Origin: Shouchella miscanthi
GTDB lineage: Bacteria; Bacillota; Bacilli; Bacillales; Bacillaceae_D
Direction: 5' to 3'
DNA length: 64,000 bases
NCBI RefSeq assembly: GCF_007725405.1
Contig: NZ_CP042163.1
Location: forward strand, 3,038,001-3,102,000
The position numbers and the translations under genes were made by a program. The notes beneath the pieces are model-generated. The model did not search any database, was not told where the DNA came from, and was given only the letters and a program-made list of their open reading frames with translations. Each line of letters opens with the position of its first letter. Position 1 is the stretch's first letter. Shown here one piece after another: positions 25,793 through 40,948 of the stretch.

Positions 25793-26995
25793 TTATAGAG
25801 GAAACTTCCCTTTTTTAAGAGTAAGCATCGGTCCACCAAGAATAAATAAGGCACGGTTATCAATCATTTTTTTCATGAAGTTTGCTGTTCCACCGTAAAT
25901 TTTCTTCGAACCAACAACACCAATTGCTTCTTTTCCACCAAGAGAAGCTACAGTCCCTTTAATGTCTGGCTTAAAGCTCTCAAGACTTGAACCACCTTTG
26001 TTAAGTGTTACGATGTTATTTGCACATGTTTTAGCCATTTGCATCGCAATCTGTGCTGTCGGCGGATAAGGACGGTTTATTTCTTCATTAATAATCAGCG
26101 CACAGTCACCGATAACAAACACATCATCAAAGCCTGGTGCACGTAAATCCGGCTCCACTTTAATACGTCCACGATTTGCTTCAAAACCTGATTGATCAAT
26201 AACTGGATTCCCACGAACCCCTGTCGCCCATACGATTGTCTCAGATTTAATCTCTTCGCCTTCTCCAACAATAACACCTGAAGCCGTAACCTCTTTAATA
26301 GGTGTGTTAATTTTGAACTCAACGCCACGACTTTCAAGCAAGTTCATTCCGTATTCAACAAGCTCTGGGTCGAATCCAGGAAGCGCGCTTGGAGCTGCTT
26401 CCACTACGAATAAACGAACTTTTTCACGTGGTACATCGTATTTTTTACATAGCTCTGGAATACGCTCAGATAATTCACCGATAAATTCAATACCTGTAAA
26501 GCCAGCGCCAGCTACTACGAATGTTAACATCCCCTCATGAGGATCAGCTGTGTTGTTGTAATTAGCAAACTGGGCATCAATGTGATCTTTTACTTGACGC
26601 GCGCCGTTTAACGTCCACTTTGTGAATGCATGTTCATGAACACCTGGGATGCCAAATGTTTCTGATACAGCACCTAACGATACAACTAAATAGTCGTAAT
26701 CTAGCTCACCATCTTTAAGCATCACTTTTTTGTCGTCTGTTTTAATTTCTAGCACTTCATCTTGAACGAAATTCACTTTGTTTGTATTTAAGACATCGGA
26801 AATCTTAACTCGAGTACGATCTGGGTCCATCGTTCCCGCTGCTGGTTCATGTAACCACGTTGTTTGGTAATGGTAGTCGTGCTTATTAACAAGTGTAATG
26901 GATGCTTCGTTGTGCCCTAATTTTTTTGACAACGCTACAGCGGTATTCATTCCACCATATCCAGCACCTGCGATAACGATCTTTGCTTTGTTCAC
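25793..26995 (-). CDS. yumB: Type II NADH dehydrogenase (YumB/Ndh type)
   Basis: 400 residues. FAD-binding [16 protein letters not shown] at the N-terminus, NAD-binding [16 protein letters not shown] at about 162-177, and the FAD-contacting DVFVIGDCA near 300. It oxidises NADH and passes electrons to menaquinone at the membrane face without pumping protons. Neighbours yuiB and divergent yumC match B. subtilis yumB. A Rex-like operator lies 48 bp upstream, suggesting control by the NADH/NAD ratio. Confidence 0.93.
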
Positions 26996-27042
26996 TTCAA
27001 ATCACTTCCAATTTAGTATTTTAATTCTTATGGCGTTAATGT

Positions 27043-38478: not shown

Positions 38479-38521
38479 AGTTCTCCTCCTCTATTGCTTG
38501 TTCAATACTCACTCAAACACG

Positions 38522-38752
38522 TTATGTTAAAGTAAAACATATCTTATTTATCTTTTCTAGTAATTGAGCTGGTGTCTCACCAGCAACATACGTATCATTA
38601 ATGAACAGAAAATGCTCTTGGTTACACACTCCACACTGTGTTAAACAGCCATATTCTACTATTTCAACGTGTGGAAGTGACAGTAAGGAGTTAATGACTT
38701 CATCTGTCCCATTATGTACATTGTTCATGCAGCACTCAATCAACATCTTCAC
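38522..38752 (-). CDS. yuzB: DUF1450 protein YuzB
   Basis: 76 residues with a thioredoxin-like/2Fe-2S-like cysteine layout: IECCMNN at the N-terminus and EYGCLTQCGVC in the middle, then VAGETPAQLLEKI, which is the YuzB/DUF1450 pattern. Function unknown. GTG 38750-38752 has GAGG at eight bases; earlier and later starts fit less well. Lies beside yutJ as in B. subtilis. Confidence 0.88.
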   Translation of the reverse strand: MKMLIECCMNNVHNGTDEVINSLLSLPHVEIVEYGCLTQCGVCNQEHFLFINDTYVAGETPAQLLEKINKICFTLT

Positions 38753-38916
38753 TTCGTTCACCTCTTTTTTATGCTACTTTGTCACTACTGTAAAGTCAAT
38801 CTGAATCAAACGTATTGGTAAAAGAAGAAAGTGTAAATTTTGGGTTGTCGAATGAAAGCACAATCGGTATAATCAAAACTGACCAGAGTCATTTTTAGTT
38901 CCAATCACTCGTAACC

Positions 38917-38959
38917 GAGGTGAAAAAACAAACCGTATTCTTTGAACGGTTTTTAAAAA
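38917..38959 (+). promoter_or_regulatory. Leader with distant Shine-Dalgarno and intervening hairpin before the TetR-YutJ gene
   Basis: GAGGTG at 38917-38922 is the only good ribosome-binding site but is ~39 bases from ATG 38960. Between them AAACCGT (38930-38936) and ACGGTTT (38946-38952) form a 7-bp hairpin; folding it would bring the site to about 16 bases from the start. Confidence 0.5.
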
Positions 38960-40585
38960 ATGAATCAATCGAAAAAAAACCGAACACGATCTGCCATACT
39001 TCAATCTGCACATACCTTATTTTATGAAAAAGGGTTTGAAGAAACAACGGTTGCAGAAATTACAAAAGGAGCACATGTAGCGAAAGGTACATTCTTTAAC
39101 CACTTCCCTACAAAAGAATCCATTTTACACGCTCTATTTGAGAAACAATTGTTAGAGCTATTAAATCAACAGCAAGAGAACCTTTCTTCAGAAACAATCT
39201 TAACGCAAATTCGTTCAAGCTTACTTTATTTACTAAAGGATTATGATATTCATCCTAGCCTAACGATTCAAACTTGGAAACATGTAATTGAAAATGAAAA
39301 GCGCTTGCACACATATTGGGTTGAGCTGTTAGAAAAAGCTTACGAAACACTTTCGTTAGCAGAGAGAGAGCATTACGCTCATATTATTAACAGCCATATT
39401 GCCTATACGATGAGTGCTTTCCATCAAGAATCCACAAGAATAGGACTTGTTCATCGAGCGATGTCCTTAATTGAAACTAGTTTTAACGCAATTTCGCTTA
39501 AAAGGAGATCTCTACTTATGAAGAAACTCGTTGTACTTGGAGCAGGTTATGGTGGTATGCGCGTCTTACAAAGACTGCTACCAAATGACTTACCAAAAGA
39601 CTGGGAAATTATTCTCGTTGATGAAATGCCTTATCACTGTCTAAAAACTGAATACTATGCACTTGCAGCTGGAACCGCATCAGATCACCATTTACGAGTT
39701 ACCTTCCCAGAAGATGCTCGTCTACAAATTAAATACGCAACTGTCACTGCTATCCACGCTGAAGACCACTCTATCCAGTTGAACAACGGTGAAACCCTTG
39801 CCTTCGATAAACTTGTTATCGGTTTAGGCTGTACAGACAAATATCACGGCGTACCTGGTGCGGATACATATACGTATAGCATCCAAACGATGAGTGCGAC
39901 TCGCCGCACGTATGAAGCGCTAAATAATGTTAGACCAGAAGGCGTCGTCTCCATTGTAGGTGCTGGCTTGAGTGGCGTTGAATTAGCAAGTGAGCTACGC
40001 GAAAGTCGACCTGACCTTTCAATTAAACTATTTGATCGCGGCGAATCTGTTATGAGTCAGTTCCCTAAGAAATTAAGCGCATATGTTCAAAATTGGTTTG
40101 TAGAGCACGGAGTTGATGTCAGCAACAATTCAAACATTACGAAAGTAGAACCCGGCGCACTTTACAATCATGATGAACGAATTGAAAGTGATGCAGTCAT
40201 TTGGACTGCTGGTGTCCAGCCTGTTCGTGTCGTACGCGATCTAGATGTAGAAAAAGATCGATCTGGACGTATCATTTTAACACCACAACATTTTATCCCC
40301 AATCATCCGGATATCTTTGTCGTTGGTGATTGTGCGAGCTTACCTCACGCACCAAGCGCACAGCTTGCGGAAGGGCAAGCAGAACAAATCGTTACCATCT
40401 TAAAACATCAATGGAAAGAGGAACCTCTTCCTGAAGAAATGCCTCGCATTAAGCTAAAAGGGGTTTTGGGCTCACTAGGAAAGAAACATGGTTTTGGTAT
40501 GATGGGCGAACGTCCACTAACAGGCCGTGTAGCGCGAATCTTAAAAAGTGGAGTGCTTTGGATGTATAAGTACCACAGTGGCTGA
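38960..40585 (+). CDS. yutJ: TetR-family regulator fused in frame to NADH dehydrogenase-like protein YutJ
   Basis: 541 residues without a stop. Residues 1-~180 are a TetR regulator (HTH TTVAEITKGAHVAKGTFFNHFPTKESI at about 29-55, helical ligand domain after). Residues 187-541 are a complete type II NADH dehydrogenase-like flavoprotein of YutJ length (355): GAGYGGMRVLQRL, SIVGAGLSGVELASEL, DIFVVGDCA. An internal AAAGGAG (39501-39507) lies ten bases before ATG 39518-39520, so YutJ could also be made alone. A TAA at 39499-39501 in another frame marks where a TetR stop would fall if one base differed. Either a true fusion or a frameshifted bicistron. Confidence 0.85.
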   Translation: MNQSKKNRTRSAILQSAHTLFYEKGFEETTVAEITKGAHVAKGTFFNHFPTKESILHALFEKQLLELLNQQQENLSSETILTQIRSSLLYLLKDYDIHPSLTIQTWKHVIENEKRLHTYWVELLEKAYETLSLAEREHYAHIINSHIAYTMSAFHQESTRIGLVHRAMSLIETSFNAISLKRRSLLMKKLVVLGAGYGGMRVLQRLLPNDLPKDWEIILVDEMPYHCLKTEYYALAAGTASDHHLRVTFPEDARLQIKYATVTAIHAEDHSIQLNNGETLAFDKLVIGLGCTDKYHGVPGADTYTYSIQTMSATRRTYEALNNVRPEGVVSIVGAGLSGVELASELRESRPDLSIKLFDRGESVMSQFPKKLSAYVQNWFVEHGVDVSNNSNITKVEPGALYNHDERIESDAVIWTAGVQPVRVVRDLDVEKDRSGRIILTPQHFIPNHPDIFVVGDCASLPHAPSAQLAEGQAEQIVTILKHQWKEEPLPEEMPRIKLKGVLGSLGKKHGFGMMGERPLTGRVARILKSGVLWMYKYHSG

Positions 40586-40586
40586 T

Positions 40587-40629
40587 AGTAAAAAGCGTTA
40601 AAGGAGTAGGTTCCTTTAACGCTTTTACT
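40587..40629. terminator. Bidirectional terminator yutJ/yuzD
   Basis: AGTAAAAAGCGTTAAAGGA pairs with TCCTTTAACGCTTTTACT (one bulge), loop GTAGGT. Confidence 0.9.
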
Positions 40630-40948
40630 TGTAGAAAGAGGCAGAAAGAATGGCTTCTACTCGTTGTGTAACCACTTTCAAACTAGGATTTCCTTCCGCA
40701 AGAATTTCTCCGTTTACTACCAATAATGGATAGAAATACTCTTCATTTAAAATGGCTTCTGCTAGCTCTTTTTCTCGTTCGGTATTTGGGGACTCTATAT
40801 CGACATAGTGAAAAGATAAATTTTCGTGAGGGAATTTCCGGGTTAATGCTGCTTCTAACCAATCTTTTGTCTCTAATGCGCTTGGCAAATGTACACAAGA
40901 AGCGCACTTTTGCTCTGCTCCATAAACCGTAAACTCAATTTTTTGCAC
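40625..40948 (-). CDS. yuzD: YuzD (DUF1462) thioredoxin-like protein
   Basis: About 107 residues, with VYGAEQKCASCVHLPSALET (a CxxC in a thioredoxin-like fold) and YPLLVVNGEILAEGNP, both typical of YuzD/DUF1462. Role unknown; its place between yutJ and the Fe-S scaffold yutI suggests redox or Fe-S work. GTG 40946-40948 has AAAGGA at eight bases; ATG 40957 touches the site. Confidence 0.87.
   Translation of the reverse strand: MQKIEFTVYGAEQKCASCVHLPSALETKDWLEAALTRKFPHENLSFHYVDIESPNTEREKELAEAILNEEYFYPLLVVNGEILAEGNPSLKVVTQRVEAILSASFYK

Follow-up and report, generated by a model that had tools for sequence, protein, structure and literature searches.

The window analysed here, a stretch of 64,000 nucleotides that is part of the 4.25 Mb genome of Shouchella miscanthi (G000), carries a single open frame of 541 codons, tetR-yutJ (38960-40585, plus strand), which runs from the ATG at 38960 to the TGA at 40583-40585 with no internal stop. 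Its first part (38960-39502, residues 1-181) encodes a complete TetR domain of nine predicted helices, with a helix-turn-helix (HTH) at residues 31-48 and a last helix at 161-181. The second part (39518-40585, residues 187-541), which has an ATG of its own at 39518, encodes YutJ, an NDH-2-like, FAD/NAD(P)H-binding flavoprotein assigned by its match to 9a5s_A. When the whole protein was searched against Pfam, TetR_N was found at residues 13-59 (5.6e-15) and Pyr_redox_2 at residues 189-468 (2.2e-34); searched separately, the TetR half returned PF00440 (TetR_N; 1.4e-15) and the YutJ half PF07992 (Pyr_redox_2; 7.1e-35). In the AlphaFold model of the fused protein (mean pLDDT 75) nine TetR helices, the last again at 161-181, are followed by a short linker and a first YutJ strand at residue 188. 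Given these Pfam matches and the modelled helices and strand, both halves look whole, in agreement with the preliminary description of this DNA, which placed a TetR regulator and an entire YutJ in one stop-free frame. Downstream, a perfect inverted repeat, AAAAGCGTTAAAGGA/TCCTTTAACGCTTTT (40591-40626), lies in the gap between yutJ and its convergent neighbour and is a possible two-way terminator for the two genes; it was absent from the output of a terminator scan. A search of 38500-40800 with Rfam at gathering thresholds gave no matches. The neighbours of yutJ are, by the names we presume for them, yuzB before and yuzD and yutI after, and frames of the right kind adjoin it in the window.

In order to establish how widely the joined architecture occurs, relatives were searched, and it was recovered in 61 genomes belonging to seven families. 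A second genome of the same species encodes an identical fused protein, and the closest named relative in the scan, Shouchella oshimensis DSM 18940, is 97 % identical over the protein. Joined frames were present in 11 of 13 genomes of the genus and in 37 of 41 genomes of the family, where all seven genera are represented. Across the order, among the matches listed by E-value, in which joined genes rank first, at least 39 of 397 genomes have the joined frame (15 within the family, and 24 spread over six further families). Outside the family, identity of the fused protein falls to ∼55-62 %, and occurrence is patchy within three families (12 of 15 genomes in f35, two of 15 in f46 and one of two in f7). 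The 61 joined coding sequences specify 58 distinct proteins and, because they share ancestry, counts drawn from them are not independent; the 91 unfused loci used for comparison specify 88 distinct YutJ proteins, with L117 and L213 probably being one genome entered twice. This TetR was not found within the 1.5-3 kb upstream of yutJ in 23 unfused loci (20 from elsewhere in the order, plus G003, G028 and G034), nor within the locus itself in 59 further unfused loci (nine Fictibacillus and 50 mostly named Paenibacillus). A search of 398 genomes of the class with the TetR half (E ≤ 1e-15, a threshold that would miss distant versions, with the best eight candidates per genome scored) yielded two joined loci together with a 206-codon frame whose similarity was confined to the HTH. 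Joined frames were thus not seen outside the order in this limited look at the 59 unfused loci and the 398 class genomes at E 1e-15. As the joined frame is common to seven families and the protein is identical in a second conspecific genome, the arrangement is, by comparison of genomes, old, selected and not a sequencing error. The preliminary description had allowed for a real and recent fusion: its reality is upheld by the 37 family genomes and the 24 from other families, but its recency is contradicted by the sharing of the join among seven families and by several unfused genes that are nested within joined clades.

Four family genomes lack the joined frame. In three of these (G003, G028 and G034) yutJ is present but this TetR is not, and the fourth, the draft genome of Bacillus sp. 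JCM 19041 (G008), has both halves, but with a frame change that leads to a stop between them. This is the sole split copy seen (L061/L019), in which the TGA of the TetR frame overlaps the YutJ ATG; as the genome is a draft, a real change and a sequencing error are indistinguishable there. L019, L021 and L061 are one locus, which was excluded from the 61-row alignment on account of its split frame and counted once in the set of 62 loci described below. In a midpoint-rooted YutJ protein tree, some nodes of which are weak, the unfused G003, G028/G034 and g41/g126 genes sit inside joined clades; this nesting argues that the TetR part was probably lost, with yutJ retained, at least three times, and such repeated loss indicates that the fusion is not essential. 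G003 has a small genome (2.6 Mb) in which the TetR half is absent and the promoter is retained (L020). In genus g16, where the region before yutJ resembles the junction, no TetR remnant was found in the three forward frames of ∼900 nt upstream. In genus g41 a TetR gene does lie next to an unfused yutJ (L216:349-988 and L217:385-1015), but it is a different TetR in divergent orientation and is not accompanied by the palindrome.

We then considered the junction, where an internal Shine-Dalgarno sequence, AAAAGGAGA (39500-39508, plus strand), is read in frame as Lys-Arg-Arg (residues 181-183). Its AAAGGAG core (39501-39507) ends ten bases ahead of the ATG at 39518, and a TAA at 39499-39501 falls in a different frame, both exactly as first described. 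In the 61 joined genes the residues preceding the inner ATG follow the pattern K/Q/R-R/G-G/R/S-x-x-x-M, and the commonest underlying DNA is AAA-AGG-GGA or AAA-AGG-AGA, which constitutes a strong Shine-Dalgarno sequence. The codon for Arg182 is AGG in 58 of 58 cases, as opposed to 70 of 1586 arginine codons (4.4 %) elsewhere in the same genes, and Lys181 is always encoded by AAA (46 of 46); where Arg182 is missing, in three loci, the codon is GGG, such that the residue is changed and the ribosome site kept. The YutJ start, ATG187, is invariant (61/61), residues 184-186 between it and the site vary freely, and the distance from site core to ATG is 15 nt in every joined gene, compared with 11-16 nt in 33 non-joined loci. 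The AGG bias, the invariant ATG and the fixed 15 nt together argue for selection on an RNA signal. No stop occurs in any of the 61 linkers, whilst neutral simulation on the YutJ tree with five free linker codons gave stop-free outcomes in three of 1000 runs in the version based on all sites and in none of 1000 in that based on third positions, with means of 10.5 and 14.3 of 61 tips, respectively, acquiring a stop (transition/transversion ratio of 2, branches limited to 3, base composition taken from the stop-free linkers). As uninterrupted linkers are this rare in simulation, selection acts on the frame too. Judging from the alignment, selection maintains the inner start at the RNA level without closing the frame, and the gene is a clear natural example in which the same stretch is under selection both for its protein reading frame and for internal ribosome binding. 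The suggestion in the preliminary description that such a site would allow free YutJ is strengthened by its conservation in all 61 joined genes.

Beyond that description, we observed a conserved palindrome at the gene's own promoter and, in Shouchella, a hairpin in the leader. A promoter scan of 38700-40800, in which eight promoter-like sites were found against 4.6 expected, gave its top score (10 of 12) to a sigma-A type promoter at 38845-38873 on the plus strand, comprising a −35 box TTGTCG (38845-38850), 17 nt, and a −10 box TATAAT (38868-38873). Six nucleotides past the −10 box, and overlying the expected transcription start, is a probable TetR operator, TGACCAGAGTCA (38880-38891; TGACC-AG-AGTCA), which has one mismatch to TGACCnnGGTCA. 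When 350 nt ahead of each gene were searched, TGACCnnGGTCA was found with at most one mismatch in all 62 loci that have this TetR (61 joined and one split), 52 copies being perfect and 10 having one mismatch. A −10-like box precedes the palindrome in each of the 62, with the palindrome beginning 5-7 nt past it in 60 and 12-13 nt past it in two. At the same stringency the palindrome was found in none of 91 loci without this TetR (0/23, 0/9 and 0/59, the last in 1-kb windows). In G003, which is among the genomes without this TetR, TGACTAGGGTAA, with two mismatches, occupies the same promoter position and is evidently a decayed copy of the palindrome. TGACCnnGGTCA is therefore probably the binding site of the TetR half, and its conservation at this promoter links the TetR part to the gene that encodes it.

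A clear regulon was not seen, either among perfect sites in 21 genomes or among one-mismatch sites in G000. The latter number 81 per strand, compared with 95 for a control pattern, and perfect copies of TGACCnnGGTCA total 52 in the 21 genomes, 10 of them being the tetR-yutJ promoter, whereas the reversed control pattern gave 37. In most genomes the count does not rise above the control (G000, 1 versus 1; three S. clausii-type genomes, 2 versus 3), the two exceptions being G012 (7 versus 1) and G044 (4 versus 0), in each of which one site besides the tetR-yutJ promoter was examined and found to lie inside a gene. Of 14 perfect sites examined, one is the tetR-yutJ promoter, 10 are within frames of at least 119 codons and three represent a recurring intergenic TGACCTAGGTCA. 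With copies elsewhere near control numbers and 10 of 14 inside frames, the counts point to local control, and a local loop fits them best, although there may be a small regulon in some species and a wider one in G012 and G044. The second, intergenic TGACCTAGGTCA, which occurs in three S. clausii-type genomes (L196, L200 and L201, near base 1501), is a possible extra target.

The long product in the window is preceded by a Shine-Dalgarno sequence, GAGGTGA (38917-38923, plus strand), located 36 nt ahead of the ATG at 38960. GAGGTGA or GGGGTGA is found in all 12 Shouchella leaders compared, at 27-36 nt from the start codon, and most long-product starts in other genera seem ordinarily spaced by eye (uncounted). 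Between the two elements in the window lies a predicted hairpin, AAACCGT-9 nt-ACGGTTT (38930-38952, plus strand). A stem is found at the same place in eight of eight Shouchella spacers, representing the 12 loci, and its sequence differs among them (AAACCGT/ACGGTTT, TAGCCGT/ACGGTTA, GCCAC/GTGGC and GTTGGC/GCCAAC). Spacer folding energies, compared with base-shuffled controls, gave p values from 0.002 to 0.17, falling below 0.05 in five of the eight. Counting against the hairpin, the folding of longer leaders gave different preferred structures for L012, L018 and L019, and the ribosome site of L014-L017 was itself paired with the start of the coding region. A hairpin-bridged translation start is possible in Shouchella. 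In phage T4 genes 38 and 25, according to the accessible part of PMC3014915, structure brings a distant Shine-Dalgarno sequence to the AUG; the likeness is that RNA structure would shorten an over-long Shine-Dalgarno-AUG distance, and the differences are that tetR-yutJ is a chromosomal regulatory gene and that its hairpin is predicted.

With respect to the TetR half, conservation is concentrated in the DNA-binding region, where conservation reaches 90 % or more at 13 of the 15 residues in positions 40-54 and entropy averages 0.96 bits over the HTH, compared with 2.05 bits for the TetR core. Trp106 and Trp120 are conserved within that core, which is modelled as all-helical with C-terminal dimerisation helices, as is characteristic of the TetR family (pLDDT of 74 for the model used in the structural comparison, and of 54-75 in blocks of the core in the full-length model). 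Acyl-CoA repressors of the FadR type are among its best matches by structure and by sequence, albeit weak ones (TM about 0.5; sequence match to residues 4-74 only). With such TetR one-component repressors it shares the TetR_N HTH, nine predicted helices and a palindrome at its own promoter. Ordinary members of the TetR family end after their last helices, however, whereas TetR-YutJ continues into an enzyme.

For the YutJ half, the best structural match was 9a5s_A (355 columns, 64 % identity), from an entry entitled 'Integrative model of YUTJ-FER by crosslinking MS and deep learning'. We take its YutJ to be that of Bacillus subtilis and FER to be, presumably, ferredoxin; the pairing hints that YutJ may exchange electrons between NAD(P)H and ferredoxin. 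The FAD/NAD(P)H glycine motifs are kept, residues 194/196 varying hardly at all and 334/336/339 not at all across 35 sequences, and the C-terminal region (about 500-541) was modelled at low confidence. The half aligns over its full length with that YutJ, and unfused relatives likewise have yutJ with a ribosome site of its own; in those examined, neither this TetR half nor the palindrome is present, and the spacing is not fixed in frame. Between joined and unfused YutJ proteins few positions differ, the substitutions are modest, and the comparison revealed no fusion-specific cysteine. Type II NADH dehydrogenases were matched by sequence (E 7.8e-31 to 3e-22) and by fold (22-27 % identity for the first bacterial entries). 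Those of C. thermarum (4nwz) and S. aureus (5na1), and YjlD (9pxk), resemble YutJ, by sequence and fold, as two-dinucleotide-domain flavoproteins, although YutJ, at 355 residues, falls short of their roughly 390-410 and, unlike them, has its closest model (9a5s) built with a partner called FER.

The best explanation of these observations, which we consider likely, is that a single gene makes a self-repressing enzyme, as TetR-YutJ and free YutJ. Translation from the upstream start would yield TetR-YutJ (∼60 kDa), the TetR half of which would dimerise and bind TGACCnnGGTCA over its own transcription start to turn the gene off, whilst the internal ribosome site would yield free YutJ (∼39 kDa). 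With no stop between TetR and YutJ, the TetR half would never arise on its own, and every repressor molecule would carry the flavoenzyme whose amount it controls. DNA binding would in turn depend on the state of that flavoenzyme (FAD/NAD(P)H, or a partner in electron transfer, for instance ferredoxin or quinone), giving a local redox-responsive feedback loop. Conservation supports the joined frame, the internal site and the palindrome; the production of both proteins, the binding of the TetR half to the palindrome and autorepression by the long protein are inferred. A switch in DNA binding driven by the redox state of the YutJ half, in line with the redox-sensing regulator proposed in the preliminary description, is plausible; the structure output included no domain-interface measure between the halves. 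We put forward only tentatively, as something that may well not hold, a single-chain redox sensor-repressor in which the electron state of the flavoenzyme (NAD(P)H/FAD, perhaps via ferredoxin) would decide palindrome occupancy and the two starts, one of them hairpin-bridged in Shouchella, would set the ratio of bound sensor to free enzyme. Against the best explanation, the comparisons suggest repeated loss of the TetR half and show a split copy in JCM 19041 and no fusion-specific cysteine.

Of the alternatives, a real contender, even if we lean against it, is control of dose without redox sensing, in which a TetR-YutJ autorepressor would hold the amount of YutJ constant, the YutJ half being no switch and the fusion making repressor and enzyme levels track each other. 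The presence of the palindrome at the gene's own promoter, with copies elsewhere little above control, the modest fusion-specific substitutions in YutJ with no such cysteine, and the freedom of spacer residues 184-186 to vary are all consistent with this, but control of dose needs no fusion, as an ordinary tetR-yutJ operon would suffice. We regard as unlikely that the TetR half keeps a small-molecule pocket of its own (e.g. for a hydrophobic or acyl ligand), with YutJ acting on that compound and the fusion merely linking the two. The completeness of the nine-helix core, its conserved tryptophans and the FadR-type proteins among its best, if weak, neighbours favour such a pocket, whilst the rapid divergence of the core and the low quality of the matches count against it and, moreover, mean that no ligand can be named. 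Less probable again is that the locus behaves as an operon of tetR and yutJ in which yutJ is initiated internally, the missing stop being incidental and the tail of YutJ on TetR without function. A strong, selected internal ribosome site, the probable repeated loss of the TetR half with YutJ staying, and the one split genome would suit that arrangement, but it sits poorly with stop-free linkers in 61 of 61 genes over seven families despite varying residues, a result reached in at most three of 1000 simulations, and with a spacing that remains a multiple of three. Finally, a sequencing slip or very recent fusion in this strain, as raised in the preliminary description on the ground that a single base change would part the genes (a frame change does so in JCM 19041), has a negligible probability, the slip being ruled out by the same joined frame in conspecific, genus, family and order genomes, down to about 55 % identity.

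Enzyme-regulator fusions are already known, PutA among them. Like PutA and BzdR, TetR-YutJ has a metabolic-enzyme fold attached to a DNA-binding domain. In BzdR the DNA-binding domain is joined to a shikimate kinase-like domain and the ancestral enzyme activity has been lost, as stated in the accessible part of PMC3602430; TetR-YutJ, by contrast, keeps its cofactor motifs, and its inner start would also give free enzyme. Genes with internal in-frame starts are described, in the portion available of PMC11005335, as giving N-terminal proteoforms, and tetR-yutJ resembles these in having a second start within a frame, differing in that its inner start parts a DNA-binding half from a whole enzyme. 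The TetR-YutJ version appears to be new, as no description of a TetR-YutJ, TetR-NADH dehydrogenase, TetR-oxidoreductase or TetR-enzyme fusion was found in the available portions of open-licence PubMed Central texts. It would be a TetR repressor with an entire flavoenzyme attached, retained in several bacterial families, and offers a clean system for asking whether and how the redox state of an enzyme passes to DNA.

Furthermore, the fusion provides a handle on YutJ, the function of which looks unsettled in the accessible parts of the literature examined. In those parts, yutJ serves merely as a ChIP control locus in PMC4466434, and in spores YumB alone was detected, the yutJ and ndh products not being so (PMC12772218); YutJ is not named in the main text of PMC11383924, nor in PMC10090944 or PMC13047044. 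The window also contains a second NADH dehydrogenase-like gene (25868-27004, minus strand), which is 33 % identical to the YutJ half and lies ∼12 kb from it, and a similar pair, 11-13 kb apart, is present in several other genomes of the genus.
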